Shown: piece after piece, positions 19,454 through 30,412 of the stretch | How positions within the stretch are numbered: the stretch's first letter is position 1 | Layout of the letters: the number at the start of each line of letters is the position of its first letter | DNA from: Pseudolabrys sp. | GTDB taxonomy: Bacteria; Pseudomonadota; Alphaproteobacteria; Rhizobiales; Xanthobacteraceae | Length of the DNA stretch: 40,748 bases | NCBI GenBank assembly: GCA_019247925.1 | Contig: JAFBAG010000195.1 | Coordinates: forward strand, 1-40,748 | Direction of reading: 5' to 3' | Made by a program: the position numbers and the translations under genes | The notes under the pieces: model-generated | The model's database searches: none | Seen by the model: only the letters and a program-made list of their open reading frames with translations | Told to the model about the DNA's origin: nothing

Positions 19454-20452
19454 TTATTCCGCCACCAGTTCCTTCGCCTTGGCGATCCAGCTTTCCACGC
19501 GACCCGGCAGACCCACTTCTTCACCGATGTAATGCGCGGCCTTGCCGCTGAGATCGGCAAATTGCTGGAAGTGGAAGATGCCGAGGTCGTTGAGCTGCTT
19601 TTCGATCGCGCCGGACACGCCTGGCAGCTTCTTGAGATCGTCGGCAGCGCCACGCGGTCCGGGCAATGCCTCATAGCCGTGATCGTCGGCAGCCGGTGCG
19701 GTCGACACGCTTTCGACGGTCGGCTTCTCGGCTGCGCCGACATCGATGCCGGATTCGCCTTGTGCGCGCGAAATACCGTCGATTGCCGCCTTGGCGACCA
19801 GATCGCAATAAAGCGACAGCGCGCGGCTGGCATCGTCGTTGCCCGGGACGACGTGGCTGATGCCGGCCGGATCCGAGTTCGTATCGACGATCGCCGCGAC
19901 CGGAATGCCGAGGCGCTGGGCCTCCTTGATCGCGATGTCTTCCTTGTTCGTGTCGATCACGAACAGCAGGTCGGGCACGCCGCCCATGTCCTTGATGCCG
20001 CCGAGCGAGCGGTCGAGCTTGTCGCGCTCGCGCTGCATCGTCAGGCGCTCTTTCTTGGTGTAGCCGCCGGCTTCGTTGGACGACAGCATCTCGTCGAGCT
20101 TGCGCAGCCGCGCGATCGAGCCGGAAATCGTCTTCCAGTTGGTCAGCGTGCCGCCGAGCCAGCGAGAATTCACGTAATATTGCGCGCAACGTTTCGCCGC
20201 GTCAGCGACCGCATCTTGCGCCTGCCGCTTGGTGCCGACGAACAGAATTCGTCCGCCCTTGGCGACGGTATCGCTGACGGCCTGCAGCGCCTTGTGCAGC
20301 ATCGGCACGGTCTGCGCGAGGTCGACGATATGGATGTTGTTGCGGGTGCCGAAGATGTATTCGCCCATCTTCGGGTTCCAGCGGTGGGCCTGGTGGCCAA
20401 AGTGCACGCCAGCTTCCAATAGCTGACGCATTGAGAAATCAGGAAGCGCCAT
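19454..20452 (-). CDS. rpsB: 30S ribosomal protein S2 with C-terminal extension (start [21 protein letters not shown] at 20452)
   Basis: [34 protein letters not shown]; extra C-terminal domain [38 protein letters not shown]... Confidence 0.97.
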
Positions 20453-20577
20453 AAACATTCTCCGGTTGGTCCGCCGCGGACGGGAGAGGCTGATTTCGTT
20501 GCTGAAACCGGCCACCGGACGGCTTATTGGCTCGTTGTGGGAGCCGAAAGCCAACGTCCGCGTGAGTGATGGCCGCG

Positions 20578-20643: not shown

Positions 20644-23600
20644 CTAAAGCGCCTCGACTGCCACAACTCCGGGAACTGCTTTGATCGCGCCCGCGATTTG
20701 CGGCGAGACCTTGAAGCGCCCGGGCAGCTTGATCTCGACCTCGGTGGCGACGTCGATCAGCAAGATCACGCTCACTTCGCCGTCGCCGGTACCATTGCCA
20801 TTGCGTCCCCGCGGCGCTGCTTCGAGCCGCTTGGCGACGGCTTCGAGCGGAGCGTCGTTGCGCAAAAACACCCGTAGCGCCGTATTCAGATTTGCCGCTG
20901 CGGCATCGAGCGGCTCGGCGGATTGGATGCGGGCGCGAACCTCGTCGCCCTGCACTTCGGCGGAAAGAAAAAGCAGAACGGCGTTGCCGGGCTCAAGAAG
21001 ATCGCGATGTGCGGCGAGCCCTTCCGCGAAAATGACGGCCTCGTAGTGCCCGCTCGGATCGGACAAGCCGATGATGCCCATCTTGTTGCCGGTCTTGGTG
21101 CGCCGCTCCGTGCGCGAAACGACTGTCGCCGCCACGCGGCCCGCGCTCGCGCCGCCCTTCACAGCGCGAGAGAACTCCGCCCAGCTCTGAACCCGCAGCC
21201 GCTTCAGCACGGCCGCGTAATCGTCGAGCGGATGCCCGGACAGGAAGAAGCCGATCGCCTCATATTCCTTGCGCAGTTTCTCCGCAGGCAACCACGGTTC
21301 GACTTTCGGCAGTACGATGGGCTCGCGCCGCCCCGCAGTGCCAAATATGTCGCCCTGCCCGACAGATGCAGCTTCGTGCGCATGCTGTGCTTGGGCCAGC
21401 ATCTTATCGACGCCGCCATAGAGCCGCGCCCGGTTATCGTCAAAAGTATCGAAAGCACCGGCCGCGATCAGGCTTTCCAGCACGCGCTTGTTGACGGCGC
21501 GGGGATTGATGCGCGCCGCGAAATCGGTGACGCCGTCGAAAGGCTTCTTGGCGCGTTCGTCCACGATCGCCTGGACCGCTTGCGTGCCGACGCCTTTGAG
21601 GGCTGCCAGCGCATAAAGGATGGTGTCGCCTTCCACGTCGAATTCGACGCCCGAACGATTGATGGAGGGCGGCGCTACCTTGATGCCGAGCCGCTCCGCC
21701 TCGGCGCGAAATTCCGCGAGCTTGTCGGTGTTACTCATGTCGAGCGTCATCGACGCCGCGAGAAACTCGACCGGATAATTGGCCTTCATATACGCGGTTT
21801 GATAAGCGACGAGAGCGTAAGCCGCGGCGTGACTCTTGTTGAAGCCGTACTCGGCGAAGCGCTCGAGCAGATCGAAAATCAGATCGGCTTGATATTTTTC
21901 GATGTTGTTCTTTAGCGCGCCGTCGACGAAGTGCTTGCGTTGCGCCTGCATTTCGGATCGGATTTTCTTACCCATGGCGCGGCGCAGCAGGTCGGCTTGG
22001 CCGAGCGTGTAGCCGGCGAGGATCTGCGCCGCCTGCATCACCTGTTCCTGGTAGACAATGACGCCGAATGTCTCGCGCAGGATCGGTTCGAGCTTGGGAT
22101 GAACGTATTCCGGCTTTTCCATACCGTGCTTGCGCGCACAGTAAGTCGGAATATTCGCCATCGGGCCCGGGCGGTAGAGCGCGACCAGCGCGATGATGTC
22201 CTCGAAGCGGTCGGGCCGCATATCGAGCAGCGCCCGCCGCATGCCCTGACTTTCCAGTTGGAAGATGCCGACCGCTTCAGCCCGCGCCAGGAGCTCGTAG
22301 GTTTTCTTGTCGTCGAGCGGGATGGCCGCAAGATCGATGTCGATACCGCGCCGCTTCACCAGATCGACGGCCTTCTTCAGAACGGTGAGAGTTTTGAGAC
22401 CGAGGAAGTCGAATTTGACGAGGCCCGCCTGCTCAACCCATTTCATGTTGAATTGGGTCACCGGCATGTCCGACTTCGGATCGCGATAGAGCGGCACCAG
22501 CTCCGAAAGCGGCCTATCGCCGATGACGATGCCGGCAGCGTGCGTCGAAGCGTGCCGGGTCAGGCCCTCCAATTTGATCGCAATGTCGAAGGCCCTTTTA
22601 ACGACCGGGTCGCGGTCGCGCTCCGCTTGCAGCCGGGGTTCGCCATCGATGGCCTGGGTGAGCGATATCGGTGCTGCCGGATTTTGTGGCACTAGCTTAC
22701 AAAGCTTATCGACGTGCCCGTAGGCCATCTGCAGGACGCGGCCGACGTCACGCAGAACACCGCGCGCCTGCAAGGTGCCGAAGGTGATGATCTGCGCGAC
22801 CTGATCGCGGCCGTAACGCTCCTGCACGTAGCGTATCACTTCGTCGCGCCGCTCCTGGCAGAAATCGATGTCGAAGTCCGGCATCGAGACGCGTTCGGGG
22901 TTGAGGAAGCGCTCGAACAGCAGCCCGAAACGCATCGGATCGAGATCCGTGATGGTCAGCGCATACGAAACCAAGGACCCTGCGCCCGAGCCGCGGCCCG
23001 GTCCTACCGGAATCTGATTGGCCTTCGCCCATTGGATAAAGTCGGCGACGATCAGAAAATATCCCGGGTATTTCATGTTCGCGATAACGTTGAGCTCGAA
23101 GCTCAGACGGTCGCGGTATTCTTGCTCGGTATGGCCTGGCGCGACGCCATGCGTCGCAATGCGGTGCGCGAGCCCCGCTTCGGCGCGGTTGCGCAGTTCG
23201 GCCGCCTCATCGACGTTACGATCGCCAACGGTGAAGCGCGGCAGAATCGGTTCATGAGTGCAAGGCCGGAATGCGCACCGTTGCGCGATCTCTACGGTCG
23301 ATGCCAACGCTTCGGGAAGATCGGCAAAGAGCGCCTTCATCTCAGCGCGTGATTTGAAGCGATGTTCCGGCGTGAGCTGGCGGCGATCGCCCTCGGCGAC
23401 AAGCCGGCCGCCCGCGATGCAGATCAGCGCATCGTGGGCTTCGAAATCTTCCACCGTGGCAAAATACGGTTCATTCGTTGCCACCAGCGGAATGCCGTGG
23501 GCATAAGCGAGATCCAGCAGCGCAGGCTCGCTGACGCGCTGCGCCGCCGTGCCCTGGCGCTGCAATTCCACATAAAGCCGATCGCCGAACAACTTGATCA

Positions 23601-24099
23601 GAGAGGTGAATCGCGGCAGCGCCAGATGGCTTTGCCCCGCCGAGATTGCCTGATCGAGAGGTCCGCCTGGCCCGCCTGTGAGGGCGATAATCCCGTCGGT
23701 CTGGCCTTCGAGCCAGCTCAGCTTGATGTGCGGCTGCTCCGACGATGGCGTTTCCAGAAACGCGCGCGAATTAAGCCGCATAAGACTCTCATATCCGGCT
23801 CTTGTCGCCGCCAGCAAAACGATGCGCGGGCGCGGCGCGGCGCTCGTCATGCCGCGCACGCCCTGTTCTCCATCTGCGAAATCGACTGCCAAGGCGCAGC
23901 CGACGATGGGCTGGATGCCGGAAGCCGCGAATTTTTCCGAGAATTCGAGCGCACCGAACATGTTGTCGGTGTCGGTAAGCGCCAAGGCCGGCTGTTTATC
24001 CGCTTTGGCCAGGTCGGCGAGACGGCTGATTGTCAGCGCGCCTTCCAGCAGCGAATAAGACGAATGCACGTGCAGGTGAACGAAATCGAGTTCAGCCAT
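20644..24099 (-). CDS. dnaE: DNA polymerase III alpha subunit (start MAELDFVHLHVHSSYSLLEGA at 24099)
   Basis: PHP domain FVHLHVHSSYSLLEGA, GPGRGSGAGSLVSYALTITDLDPMRFGLLFERFLNPERVSMPDFDIDFCQERRDEVI, YQEQVMQAAQILAGYTLGQADLLRRAMGKK. Confidence 0.97.
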   Translation of the reverse strand: MAELDFVHLHVHSSYSLLEGALTISRLADLAKADKQPALALTDTDNMFGALEFSEKFAASGIQPIVGCALAVDFADGEQGVRGMTSAAPRPRIVLLAATRAGYESLMRLNSRAFLETPSSEQPHIKLSWLEGQTDGIIALTGGPGGPLDQAISAGQSHLALPRFTSLIKLFGDRLYVELQRQGTAAQRVSEPALLDLAYAHGIPLVATNEPYFATVEDFEAHDALICIAGGRLVAEGDRRQLTPEHRFKSRAEMKALFADLPEALASTVEIAQRCAFRPCTHEPILPRFTVGDRNVDEAAELRNRAEAGLAHRIATHGVAPGHTEQEYRDRLSFELNVIANMKYPGYFLIVADFIQWAKANQIPVGPGRGSGAGSLVSYALTITDLDPMRFGLLFERFLNPERVSMPDFDIDFCQERRDEVIRYVQERYGRDQVAQIITFGTLQARGVLRDVGRVLQMAYGHVDKLCKLVPQNPAAPISLTQAIDGEPRLQAERDRDPVVKRAFDIAIKLEGLTRHASTHAAGIVIGDRPLSELVPLYRDPKSDMPVTQFNMKWVEQAGLVKFDFLGLKTLTVLKKAVDLVKRRGIDIDLAAIPLDDKKTYELLARAEAVGIFQLESQGMRRALLDMRPDRFEDIIALVALYRPGPMANIPTYCARKHGMEKPEYVHPKLEPILRETFGVIVYQEQVMQAAQILAGYTLGQADLLRRAMGKKIRSEMQAQRKHFVDGALKNNIEKYQADLIFDLLERFAEYGFNKSHAAAYALVAYQTAYMKANYPVEFLAASMTLDMSNTDKLAEFRAEAERLGIKVAPPSINRSGVEFDVEGDTILYALAALKGVGTQAVQAIVDERAKKPFDGVTDFAARINPRAVNKRVLESLIAAGAFDTFDDNRARLYGGVDKMLAQAQHAHEAASVGQGDIFGTAGRREPIVLPKVEPWLPAEKLRKEYEAIGFFLSGHPLDDYAAVLKRLRVQSWAEFSRAVKGGASAGRVAATVVSRTERRTKTGNKMGIIGLSDPSGHYEAVIFAEGLAAHRDLLEPGNAVLLFLSAEVQGDEVRARIQSAEPLDAAAANLNTALRVFLRNDAPLEAVAKRLEAAPRGRNGNGTGDGEVSVILLIDVATEVEIKLPGRFKVSPQIAGAIKAVPGVVAVEAL

Positions 24100-24201: not shown

Positions 24202-24226
24202 AATGCCCGGCAGAAAGCCGGGCATT
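24202..24226 (-). terminator. Intrinsic terminator of the 24270-24368 microgene
   Basis: Minus strand AATGCCCGGC-TTTCT-GCCGGGCATT followed by TTCTTTTCC: perfect 10-bp stem plus U-rich tail. Confidence 0.88.
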
Positions 24227-24269
24227 GGGGGACGCACACGCAGACCTACGCAACAGGGAACGCAACGCA

Positions 24270-24368
24270 CTACAGATTGGTCAGCACCTGCGACCAGATC
24301 ACGATCATGCCGCCGAACAAGGCAAGCGAAGCGAGGGCAGCCGCATCTTGGATGAGCGCGCGAAACAT
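24270..24368 (-). CDS. 32-aa single-transmembrane microprotein, predicted SOS-regulated
   Basis: Manual translation: MFRALIQDAAALASLALFGGMIVIWSQVLTNL*; GGAG ribosome-binding site 6 nt before ATG; hydrophobic segment LASLALFGGMIVIW; flanked by its own promoter/operators and terminator. Below the length cut-off of the supplied ORF track. Confidence 0.75.
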   Translation of the reverse strand: MFRALIQDAAALASLALFGGMIVIWSQVLTNL

Positions 24369-24385
24369 GACCGTCTCCATCAAAA

Positions 24386-24418
24386 GAACAGACGAAGAAC
24401 ATAGTTCATGTTATGTTC
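24386..24418 (-). promoter_or_regulatory. Two alphaproteobacterial LexA/SOS boxes
   Basis: Plus strand GAAC-AGACGAA-GAAC (24386-24400) and GTTC-ATGTTAT-GTTC (24404-24418), 3 bp apart; each matches GTTCN7GTTC or its complement GAACN7GAAC exactly. Confidence 0.82.
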
Positions 24419-24427
24419 CCTTGTCAA
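24398..24427 (-). promoter_or_regulatory. Sigma70-like promoter of the microgene
   Basis: Minus strand TTGACA (24427-24422) with TATGTT (24403-24398) at an 18-nt spacer; interleaved with the SOS boxes. Confidence 0.7.
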
Positions 24428-24453: not shown

Positions 24454-25164
24454 CTAATCCAGCTCGACGACTTGACCGTCCTGGATCGTCACGCGCCGAT
24501 CCATACGGGCTGCCAGATCCATGTTGTGGGTGGCAACGACCGTCGCGAGATTGGAGGCTTGGACGAGCTGGGTGAGCGCCGAAAATACGTGGTCGGCGGT
24601 ATGGGGATCCAGATTGCCGGTCGGCTCGTCGGCCAGCAGGACGCGGGGTGCGTTGGCAACCGCTCGGGCGATCGCCACCCGCTGCTGCTCGCCACCCGAC
24701 AGCTCGGCGGGCCTATGGGTCAAACGCTGACCAAGTCCGAGATAGCCCAGAAGCTCGACGGCGCGCGCCCTCGCCTCGCCCCGTGACAGGCCCCGGATCA
24801 TCTGGGGAAGCAAAACGTTCTCGAGCGCGCTGAATTCCGGCAGCAGATGATGGGACTGGTAGACGAAGCCGATATCGTCGCGCCGGATGCGGGTGCGTTC
24901 GGTATCGGGAAGCGTCGAAGTTGCGACGCTATCGATATAGACTTCTCCTGCGTCCGGATGCTCGAGCAGGCCGGCGAGATGCAGCAGCGTCGATTTGCCG
25001 GCACCCGATGGCCCGACCAGCGCAACCGATTGACCCGGCCACACCGCCAGCTCCGCGCCGTTGAGAATATCGAGCGTGGCATCCCCTTGACGATAATGCC
25101 GTTCGATATTGTGCAGGAACAGGACCGGCGAATCTTCGCCCTGCGTTACGTTGAGCTCACTCAT
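24454..25164 (-). CDS. lolD: Lipoprotein-releasing ABC transporter ATP-binding protein LolD
   Basis: [60 protein letters not shown]. Confidence 0.93.
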
Positions 25165-26422
25165 AACGCAGCGCCTCCACCGGATCGAGGCGTGCCGCTC
25201 GCCACGCCGGATAGAGCGTCGCCAGAAGCGACAACGTCAGCGCCATCACCACGACGGCGGCGGTTTCGCCGATATCCATATTGGCGGGCAGCTTCGAAAG
25301 AAAATAAAGCTCAGGCGAAAACAATTCAGTGTTGGTCAGCCATGACAGGAATTGCCGGATGGATTCGATATTGAGACAGACCACGACGCCCAGCAGCAGT
25401 CCGACCAAGGTGCCGACCACGCCGATCGAAGCGCCGGTAATCAAAAACACGCGCATGATCGCGCCCTGCGCCGCGCCCATAGTACGCAAAATGGCAATGT
25501 CCCGGCCTTTGTCCTTCACCAACATGATCAGGCCGGAGACGATGTTGAGTGCCGCGACGAGCACGATCAAAGTCAGAATTAGAAACATGACGTTGCGCTC
25601 GACCTGAAGCGCATTGAAGAACGTCGCGTTGCGCTGCCGCCAATCGATCATGAAGATCGGACGCTGGGCGCTATCGGTGACGGCCTTGCGGTAACGATCG
25701 ACCCGGTCAGGGTTCGCCGTGTAGACCTCGATCGCCGTCACATCGCCGGCGCGATTGAAATAGGCCTGCGCTTCGCTGAGCGGCATGAAGACGAAGGCCG
25801 AGTCATATTCAGACATTCCGACTTCAAAAACGGCGGCAATTCGATAGACCTTGATGCGTGGCGTCGTGCCCATCGGCGTGACCGCGCCGCGCGGAGCAAC
25901 CAGAGTTATGTTGTCGCCCGAGCGCAGCGACAATTGGTCCGCAAGCCGGCGGCCGATCACGACACCCTGCTGATCATCAAAACCTTCGAGCGTGCCCTGC
26001 TTGATGTTACGCGCGATCGACGGAAGCTTTTGCAGGTCCTTGAGCCGAATGCCGCGCACCAGCACTCCGCCGCTGTTATAGGGCGACGAGGCCAGCGCCT
26101 GGCCTTCAACGATCGGCGCGGCCAGCCGGATTCCGTCGGCCTTCGAAACGCGGTCGGCAACCTCTTCCCAATCCGACAGCGGCTTTTCGATGGGCTGGAT
26201 CAGCAGGTGGCCGTTCAGGCCGAGAATCTTGTCGAGCAACTCGGTGCGAAACCCGTTCATCACCGCCATGACGATGATGAGTGTGGCAACGCCCAGCATG
26301 ATCCCAAGGAAGGAAAACCCGGCGATGACCGAAATGAATCCCTCTTTGCGCCGCGCCCTGAGATAGCGCAGCGACAACATCCATTCGAACGGAGAAAACG
26401 GCCGCGTACCGCTGCTCATCAA
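25157..26422 (-). CDS. Lipoprotein-releasing ABC transporter permease, LolC/LolE family
   Basis: [63 protein letters not shown]-terminal [22 protein letters not shown]. Confidence 0.92.
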
Positions 26423-28301: not shown

Positions 28302-28832
28302 ATGGATTCCATGAAAGCTGTTTTACGCTTTGGTAGAGTTGCGCTTCTTCTTGGCGCGTCAGCGCTGCCTTCTAACGCCCATGTGACGCTCGAACAACGC
28401 GAAGCCACTCTCGGCGCGCCCACCAAGCTGACGTTCCGTGTAGGCCACGGCTGCGGCGAATCTCCAACCATCAAGGTCCGGGTGCAAATCCCCGAAGGCG
28501 TTATCGCCGCCAAACCCATGCCGAAACCCGGCTGGGCTATCGACACGTTCAAAAGCAGATATGCGAAGACCTATGAGTTCTTCCATGGCGCCAAACTGTC
28601 GGAAGGCGTCACCGAAATCGCCTGGACCGGCAAGCTCGCCGATGCGCATTACGACGAATTCGTCGCCTCGGTTTTCGTTGCGGCGGACCTCAAGCCCGGG
28701 CGGCTTTTCTTTCCAGTCGTGCAGGAGTGTGAACAAGGTGTGCATCGCTGGATCGAGATCCCCGCGGGCGGCCAGGCCGGGCACGATCTGAAAGAGCCAG
28801 CGCCCTCGCTTATTCTTACTCCGAAACGATGA
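28302..28832 (+). CDS. YcnI/DUF1775 family periplasmic copper-binding protein (start 28302 or 28311)
   Basis: Signal peptide ending in NAHVTLEQREATLGAPTKLTFRVGHGCGESPT; KPGW motif; DUF1775 layout. Confidence 0.88.
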   Translation: MDSMKAVLRFGRVALLLGASALPSNAHVTLEQREATLGAPTKLTFRVGHGCGESPTIKVRVQIPEGVIAAKPMPKPGWAIDTFKSRYAKTYEFFHGAKLSEGVTEIAWTGKLADAHYDEFVASVFVAADLKPGRLFFPVVQECEQGVHRWIEIPAGGQAGHDLKEPAPSLILTPKR

Positions 28833-30412
28833 CCGGCGCCGCGGCGCGGATCGTTTGGCTTGCGATCCTGCTGACCGCCGCGCTTTGCAGCGCGGCGGGC
28901 CCGGCCTTTGCGCATGCCACTTTGGTGCGCGCGGAGCCGCGCGACGGCGCGATGCTATCAGCGGCGCCTGCCGAGCTGAGCCTCACGTTCAACGAGCCTG
29001 TCGCCGGGCTGGTGTTCAAGCTGGTGAGCCCCGACGGCGGGACGAGCAATCCGGCCTTTGTGGTCGAGGACCGCACCGTCACGTTGAGAGCTCCGAGCCT
29101 TCTCGGTCAAGGCAGTTACATTCTGAGCTGGCGCGTGGCTTCGGCAGATGGCCATCCCGTCGGTGGCGCTTTGCAATTCTCGATCGGGGTGCGCAGCAGC
29201 GCGCCAGCCAACATCAACAGCACGGACCGAGGGCTCGCTGTTGCCATCTGGCTGGCACGTCTGGCGATCTATGCCGGTCTGTTTATCGGCATTGGCGGGC
29301 TTGCATTCCCGGTTTGGACCGGAACGAAATTGCCGCCAAAGGCGGCGGCCGTCGTCGCGAGTGTTTCGGCGGTCGCGTTCGCAGCAATTCCGCTCTCGAT
29401 CGGCTTTCAGGGCGTCGACGCGCTCGCCTTGCCGCTCGAAAGCTTCTGGCGGCCCGAGGCTTATATCGCGGGTCTCAAAACCGTCTACGCGACGAGTGCT
29501 CTGATCGCGGGATGCGGGCTGGCGATAAGTTTTGCTGTCGCAGGGGCTCGCAATCGAAACCTTACCAGATTGCTGTCACTCTCTTCAATCGTCCTGGCAG
29601 CAGCCGCGCTTGCCGCTAGCGGGCACGCCAGCAATGCGATGCCACAGTGGCTCACGCGGCCCTCGGTTTTCATTCATGGAATTGCCGTTGCGCTCTGGGC
29701 CGGTTCGCTGATCCCGCTTTGGTTCTTGTTTCGCGCGACCGCGAGACACTCTGTGGTGCTCCTGCGCTTTTCGCGCGCCATCATGTTTGTGCTGGCGGGC
29801 CTTCTCATCAGCGGCACCATCCTCGCCGTCATTCAGATCGAACACGCCGCTGCAATCTGGACGACCGATTATGGGCGCATTTTCGCGGCCAAGCTCGTCC
29901 TGGTCGCCACCCTTCTTTGCATTGCAGCTTACAATCGTTATGTGCTGACGCCGGGCGTCCTGCGGGCCCGTGCAAAAGCGCGGCGGCTTTTCGTCCGTTC
30001 GGTCGGCGCGGAGCTTGGCTGCATCATCGCCATTCTGGGCTTGGTCGCGCTGTGGCGCTTCACGCCGCCGCCCCGATCGATCGCTTCCGGCGAGCCCGCT
30101 TTTGTCCACCTCCACGGTGAAAAGGTGATGGCTGATGTGACTATGTCGCCCGGTCGTGCCGGGCCAATCGAATTGCGCATCCACCTGATGCAGGAAGATT
30201 TCACATCGTTGCGCGCCAAGGAAGTGACCGTCGCCCTTTCCGCCCCGGGTCTGGAAGGCCTGCAGCGTGCGGCACGCCAGGGAAATGACGGTGATTGGCG
30301 CGTCACCAATGTGAGTCTGCCGATGGGTGGGGTCTGGACCGTGCGGGTCGAGACCTTGGTCGACGATTTCAGGAGAGAAATCCTTGACGGTCCCCTCGTG
30401 GTCGGACGCTAG
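28829..30412 (+). CDS. CopC-CopD fusion copper resistance/uptake protein with a C-terminal YtkA/FixH-like domain
   Basis: AFAHATLVRAEPRDGAMLSAAPAELSLTFNEPV (CopC), multi-TM CopD region, C-terminal MADVTMSPGRAGPIELRIHLM...WRVTNVSLPMGGVWTVRVE. Confidence 0.9.
   Translation: MTGAAARIVWLAILLTAALCSAAGPAFAHATLVRAEPRDGAMLSAAPAELSLTFNEPVAGLVFKLVSPDGGTSNPAFVVEDRTVTLRAPSLLGQGSYILSWRVASADGHPVGGALQFSIGVRSSAPANINSTDRGLAVAIWLARLAIYAGLFIGIGGLAFPVWTGTKLPPKAAAVVASVSAVAFAAIPLSIGFQGVDALALPLESFWRPEAYIAGLKTVYATSALIAGCGLAISFAVAGARNRNLTRLLSLSSIVLAAAALAASGHASNAMPQWLTRPSVFIHGIAVALWAGSLIPLWFLFRATARHSVVLLRFSRAIMFVLAGLLISGTILAVIQIEHAAAIWTTDYGRIFAAKLVLVATLLCIAAYNRYVLTPGVLRARAKARRLFVRSVGAELGCIIAILGLVALWRFTPPPRSIASGEPAFVHLHGEKVMADVTMSPGRAGPIELRIHLMQEDFTSLRAKEVTVALSAPGLEGLQRAARQGNDGDWRVTNVSLPMGGVWTVRVETLVDDFRREILDGPLVVGR

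Follow-up and report, generated by a model that had tools for sequence, protein, structure and literature searches.

The locus upstream of dnaE

The window, that is, the whole 40,748-nucleotide stretch of Pseudolabrys sp. DNA analysed here (contig JAFBAG010000195.1), contains a 32-codon open reading frame (ORF) placed between a lolD-like gene and dnaE. The elements of the locus are given below in the direction of transcription; the hexamers, boxes, Shine-Dalgarno motif and codons are read directly from the sequence.

25157..26422 (-): lolC/E-like permease with MacB_PCD and FtsX domains (Pfam)
24454..25164 (-): lolD-like ABC ATPase (Pfam), the upstream neighbour in many relatives
24422..24427 (-): -35 hexamer TTGACA, of which TTGAC recurs in relatives
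24386..24418 (-): predicted composite LexA operator GAACATAACATGAACTATGTTCTTCGTCTGTTC, GAACN7GAAC - N3 - GTTCN7GTTC, a layout conserved in relatives
24418-24404 (-): first box GAACATAACATGAAC (GAAC-N7-GAAC), followed by TAT and then the second box
24398..24403 (-): candidate -10 TATGTT with an 18-nt spacer, inside the operator, exact register presumptive
24400-24386 (-): second box GTTCTTCGTCTGTTC (GTTC-N7-GTTC)
24375..24378 (-): Shine-Dalgarno GGAG, 6 nt before the ATG
24368 (-): start codon ATG of the 32-codon ORF
24270..24368 (-): 32-codon ORF plus TAG, encoding MFRALIQDAAALASLALFGGMIVIWSQVLTNL, a SidA-type peptide with a single predicted transmembrane (TM) helix
24272-24270 (-): stop codon TAG of the 32-codon ORF
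24202..24226 (-): intrinsic terminator AATGCCCGGC-TTTCT-GCCGGGCATT, then TTCTTTTCC, not conserved in relatives
20644..24099 (-): dnaE, DNA polymerase III alpha (Pfam), the conserved downstream gene by which the SidA slot is defined

Every element listed in the preliminary description of this DNA is found at its place on the minus strand, including the GGAG ribosome-binding site and the ATG at 24368. The terminator hairpin (24226-24202) has a perfect stem of 10 pairs, 7 of them G-C, and a T-rich tail. Encoded in the same genome are a LexA, whose DNA-binding domain is of the expected kind, and a SEDS protein of the FtsW family.

Two other ORFs of the window are worth recording. The ribosomal protein S2 ORF (19454-20554, minus strand) has its S2 domain at residues 45-260 of 366, with a C-terminal extension of about 100 residues, and a CopC-CopD fusion (copper resistance) is present as a single ORF at 28829-30412 on the plus strand.

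Conservation and coding capacity of the ORF

The preliminary description presented the ORF as an undescribed single-TM microprotein and named conservation by tBLASTn and a dN/dS comparison as ways to check it; both speak for a coding sequence. Of 200 genomes from the window's family, 159 contain a match to the peptide (tblastn, E <= 1, most between 1e-9 and 1e-4), and an independent collection of named records holds 269 confirmed relatives, the named ones being of the Xanthobacteraceae/Bradyrhizobium group (Pseudolabrys, Rhodoplanes and many Bradyrhizobium). Twenty representative peptides align without gaps and with nine invariant columns; A9, A10, L12, L17, F18, G20, W25 and V28 are among the residues that do not vary. 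For 95 distinct coding sequences (1,724 pairs, each at most 25% divergent), omega (dN/dS) is 0.10 in frame, with pS 0.33 and pN 0.043, as against 0.31 to 11 in the other five frames, and the mean entropies at codon positions 1, 2 and 3 are 0.77, 0.21 and 1.31. Judged by these substitution patterns, the reading frame is under purifying selection, and its status as a genuine gene with coding potential is very strongly supported. It is a gene that standard gene finders overlook, and usually a single conserved chromosomal copy; searches of plasmids and phages gave no match to it.

The AlphaFold2 model of the 32-residue peptide, whose pTM carries no information at such a length, consists of one helix, residues 2-31, with a pLDDT of 94. 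The helix is short and strongly hydrophobic, in agreement with the single TM segment originally claimed, the membrane location itself being a prediction. As to the peptide being undescribed, no Pfam or NCBIfam model recognises it (0 NCBIfam matches at E<=10), and the literature searched describes no SidA homologue in Hyphomicrobiales; an earlier mention may nevertheless exist.

The promoter and its composite operator

The ORF was also said to be driven by a LexA-controlled SOS promoter, and the relatives bear this out. At least one box of the GTTCN7GTTC/GAACN7GAAC type occurs in all 97 of their distinct upstream regions (0.4 expected from dinucleotide shuffles), and in 94 of the 97 the exact composite GAACN7GAACN3GTTCN7GTTC is found. 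Its end lies 12-29 nt from the ATG in the family loci; TTGAC precedes the operator by 8-11 nt in 108 of the 109 loci with the composite, and a Shine-Dalgarno-like motif follows it in 106 of the 109. The two boxes described above are the only exact ones in the window and, since shuffled windows contain 1.55 on average, scattered, it is their position and arrangement, not their number, that goes beyond chance.

A search of 101 family genomes for the composite pattern found 56 sites in 55 genomes, and each of the 56 precedes a copy of the peptide ORF, as placed by tblastn coordinates, by about 15-60 nt, while the reversed pattern gave 0 sites in the same genomes. The composite therefore behaves as the private operator of the peptide gene in this family. 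One genome (G004, L320) has two copies of the peptide gene, on contigs C427 and C504, each with its own composite operator.

The motifs very strongly support a LexA-type promoter for the gene, and the boxes suggest that LexA would bind there and that the peptide gene would be induced by DNA damage. Because the candidate -10 lies inside the operator, bound LexA would cover the promoter.

The slot upstream of dnaE in Alphaproteobacteria

Of 115 family loci, 114 have dnaE as the following gene, in the same orientation and within 1 kb; the remaining locus runs off its contig. An order-wide search with the family profile found 48 of 298 genomes at E <= 0.01. Twenty of these order-wide loci, nineteen belonging to other families, were fetched; every one is immediately upstream of dnaE, and an exact LexA box is present in 18. 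Several other families of the order, though they escaped the profile, have a box and a micro-ORF in the slot (L340, L344, L347, L350, L351 and L352), so profile searches underestimate the distribution of the gene. In a class-wide search, the Xanthobacteraceae profile alone gave only chance-level matches outside the family, and for this reason synteny was used instead. With the DnaE N-terminus as query and about one genome sampled per family, a LexA box was found 150-500 nt ahead of dnaE in 15 of 85 readable loci (0.84 in shuffles), with a short hydrophobic ORF after it.

One of the families so sampled has a 29-aa ORF in the slot, and this is the family of SidA, the 29-aa, LexA-controlled inner-membrane peptide of Caulobacter that binds FtsW and blocks division (PMC4211646). 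A search of 79 genomes of that family gave matches to the peptide in 68 (E <= 1), the faintest of them no better than chance. The best 30 loci encode peptides of 29-31 aa; dnaE comes directly after the ORF in all 30, and 24 have an exact LexA box. The curated sidA gene, CCNA_02004 (PMC10769358), shows the same order of LexA box, micro-ORF and dnaE, the last being CC1926 in Caulobacter (PMC1839093). The window ORF occupies this slot on the same strand as dnaE and has two LexA boxes in its promoter; like SidA, with its approximately 29 aa and one TM helix, the window peptide is small (32 aa), hydrophobic and modelled as one helix, with a predicted membrane location.

In Sinorhizobium meliloti, a translated ORF, sORF25, was detected by Ribo-seq in the 5'UTR of dnaE1, which is the same slot; that paper links it neither to SOS nor to SidA (PMC10117765). 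Taken from position alone, it is possibly the Rhizobiaceae member and is offered as a lead.

At four loci from other families (L198, L203, L180 and L227), very divergent ORFs of 26-35 aa, each with a single helix, follow a LexA box upstream of dnaE; slot and promoter have been kept there while the sequence has drifted widely. At L342, a short and very hydrophobic ORF, MFLCRELNMIVLKESCALLVIALLVVSVGIIA, comes after a double LexA box at -302/-284 upstream of dnaE; it has no close resemblance to the family and may encode a peptide that has taken over the slot.

The gene is absent from several genera of the window's family and must therefore be dispensable. The full region upstream of dnaE was inspected in ten genera without a strong match (L329-L338); none has the ORF there, and in four of them only 72-106 nt separate lolD and dnaE, so the loss appears to be genuine. 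These apparent losses should be useful for asking what replaces the SOS peptide. One of them (L332, genome G009) has two LexA boxes 949-968 nt upstream of dnaE and an empty slot, and here the peptide gene may have moved or been replaced.

Relationship to SidA

The preliminary description called the peptide SidA-like by analogy and proposed an alignment to SidA of Caulobacter, whose outcome is divided. The curated model NF033228 (div_inhib_SidA; cut-off 35 bits) matches neither the window peptide nor anything else in the whole window genome; its cut-off is narrow, for whereas one 29-aa SidA-family peptide scores 60 bits, the SidA family's own 29-aa slot peptide at L247/L257 scores 20.5. Whole-genome searches with this model exceeded the cut-off in four SidA-family genomes and in one of 14 named controls, presumably Caulobacter, which was included among the 14. 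Direct comparison of the SidA and Xanthobacteraceae profiles (hhalign) is weak, with a probability of 22 and 2 of 200 column-permuted controls as good, so that the link to SidA rests on intermediates and synteny.

With intermediates, the profile similarity becomes clear. Against 14 divergent slot peptides from outside the SidA family, the window peptide included, chosen by eye, the SidA profile gave a probability of 95.9 and a score of 34.8, whereas permuted controls reached at most 18.4 when all core columns were permuted and 23.5 when the helix columns were (n=200 each). Because the 14 had been picked by eye, the comparison was repeated with 25 such peptides, again with the window peptide and without the SidA family, adding the poorer-looking slot peptides found to that point; the probability was 96.0 and the score 35.0, to be read with the reservation that single-helix peptides hold little information and can converge. 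A comparison of SidA with a mixed alignment was discarded as circular, since that alignment contained two SidA-family peptides, and was repeated without them.

In SidA and the slot peptides alike, the helix is immediately preceded by an acidic residue, starts with an ALAS-like sequence and has an aromatic residue near its middle, and tryptophan occupies one of two positions or both. In the intermediate MSKLIKKVEEEGGVSRWFQDIAALASVAAMGWTVLLWSEI (L232), as in L250, a tryptophan stands at the position seen in SidA and another at that of the Hyphomicrobiales. The window peptide and SidA share the core [DE]xxALAS..F, besides a LexA-box promoter, a single helix of about 30 aa and a location directly upstream of dnaE on the same strand. 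They differ in length (32 against 29 aa), in the position of the conserved tryptophan (25 in the window family, 19 in SidA) and in the FVWM motif, which the window peptide lacks; moreover, nearly all members of the window family have the composite four-half-site operator, though some Caulobacter-family loci also carry two boxes. We therefore regard the window peptide as a homologue of SidA by position, diverged in sequence, and not as a member of the curated equivalog family. This assignment is supported by three independent lines, namely the same slot, profile similarity through intermediates, and the same size and topology, and what had been an analogy has gained substance accordingly.

Proposed function and alternatives

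We think it quite probable that this diverged SidA homologue acts as the SOS checkpoint peptide of its lineage, most likely via FtsW; binding to FtsW and division arrest are proposed by analogy. SidA leaves assembly of the divisome possible, and its block can be bypassed by particular alleles of ftsW and ftsI (PMC4211646); a low-confidence AF3 model in a 2026 study places SidA on TM7 of FtsW (PMC13396833). In an undamaged cell, LexA on the two face-to-face boxes would occupy the part of the promoter that separates the -35 from the start codon, and transcription would be blocked. Upon DNA damage, active RecA would lead to cleavage of LexA, and the composite operator would be freed. The short mRNA would then give rise to a 32-residue single-helix inner-membrane peptide, with its N-terminus in according to the positive-inside rule. 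Within the septal peptidoglycan synthase (FtsW/I/N), the peptide would dock on FtsW and keep the complex inactive, so that division would be delayed until repair is done. The gene, its conservation, the operator, the position beside dnaE and the profile similarity to SidA are results of the present analysis; LexA binding and induction we infer from the boxes, the FtsW target and arrest from SidA, and membrane insertion as well.

Small division inhibitors of comparable action are known. DidA of Caulobacter is likewise a DNA-damage-induced small membrane protein acting on the FtsW/I/N complex but, compared by its description, it has 71 aa, binds FtsN, is controlled by DriD independently of SOS and lies at another locus (PMC4211646). 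YneA of Bacillus, SosA of Staphylococcus, ChiZ of Mycobacterium and DivS of Corynebacterium are also division inhibitors induced by SOS or DNA damage; YneA, SosA and ChiZ are small membrane proteins that act late in division, YneA having been shown, and SosA and ChiZ modelled, on FtsW (PMC13396833). These four, however, come from other phyla and are longer, some with extracellular domains, and there is no evidence of common ancestry.

Might the peptide be SOS-induced and yet act elsewhere than on the divisome, for example by depolarising the membrane, its likeness to SidA being one of size and location only? TisB of E. coli is an SOS-induced single-helix membrane peptide of similar length, and so is DinQ; both are type I toxins that affect membrane functions, differing from the window peptide in not lying beside dnaE, and no sequence relation to them was seen. 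SOS-induced single-helix peptides with other targets do therefore exist, DinQ being described as a toxic SOS-regulated membrane peptide (PMC3567139), and the short, strongly hydrophobic helix of the window peptide would suit such a role. Against this stand the slot, which is that of curated sidA across the class, the profile similarity, and the occurrence of the gene as a usually single, vertically conserved chromosomal copy with no plasmid or phage match, unlike type I toxins of this kind, which go with an antisense RNA partner and are often mobile or multi-copy; no such partner was noticed in passing. We consider a non-divisome effector of this kind improbable.

Somewhat less probable still is that the ORF is a leader peptide or uORF whose translation, together with the LexA boxes, regulates dnaE after damage. 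That dnaE is next in practically every relative would favour such a role, and so would sORF25 of S. meliloti, given that the paper describing it suggests a uORF function for some such sORFs (PMC10117765). The terminator bears on this point. The preliminary description saw the unit as self-contained and insulated from dnaE; the 10-bp-stem terminator is real in the window, but a terminator-like site lies between gene and dnaE in only 3 of 99 loci, the window included, and as a trait of the family it was rejected. Insulation from dnaE, predicted from the hairpin, is peculiar to the window species and not to the gene family. As most relatives lack a terminator, co-transcription is possible and SOS-induced transcription could run into dnaE there; the translated sORF25 in the dnaE1 5'UTR fits such read-through (PMC10117765). 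On the other hand, what is conserved is the amino-acid sequence and the helix throughout, not a stall motif or a structure near the stop; the gap to dnaE varies between 109 and 600 nt; the two genes of the window have a strong terminator between them; and SidA, which occupies this slot in its own family, is known to inhibit in trans. Some species may thus use the locus in dnaE expression, but such a role would leave the conserved peptide unexplained. A chance ORF behind an SOS promoter serving dnaE or a non-coding transcript, for which one could cite its mere 32 codons and, according to the preliminary description, its absence from the supplied annotation track, is ruled out in practice by the 159/200 conservation and the omega of 0.10, together with the codon-position signature and the invariant residues, and merits hardly any credence.

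Implications

The gene for this SidA-type peptide is probably an overlooked cell-division checkpoint of Bradyrhizobium-type bacteria and of many other Alphaproteobacteria. We lean, with some reserve, toward the broader view that it belongs to a class-wide, mostly unannotated SidA-type family kept beside dnaE through much of alphaproteobacterial history, and that the Xanthobacteraceae/Bradyrhizobium group evolved a dedicated four-half-site LexA operator, absent elsewhere in its genomes, which could place this peptide under the tightest repression of all SOS genes. In Caulobacter, the SOS division inhibitor that has been characterised is SidA; among the genomes tested, the curated SidA model passes the cut-off only in the Caulobacter-like family. 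The slot rule, LexA box, micro-ORF, dnaE, offers an easy way to locate proteins whose shortness and divergence put them beyond the reach of homology searches. The arrangement raises the questions of why the gene stays by dnaE, why some genera lose it, and what role the face-to-face double LexA operator plays. If the slot rule holds, the checkpoint of Bradyrhizobium and of many other lineages would become findable and testable gene by gene.
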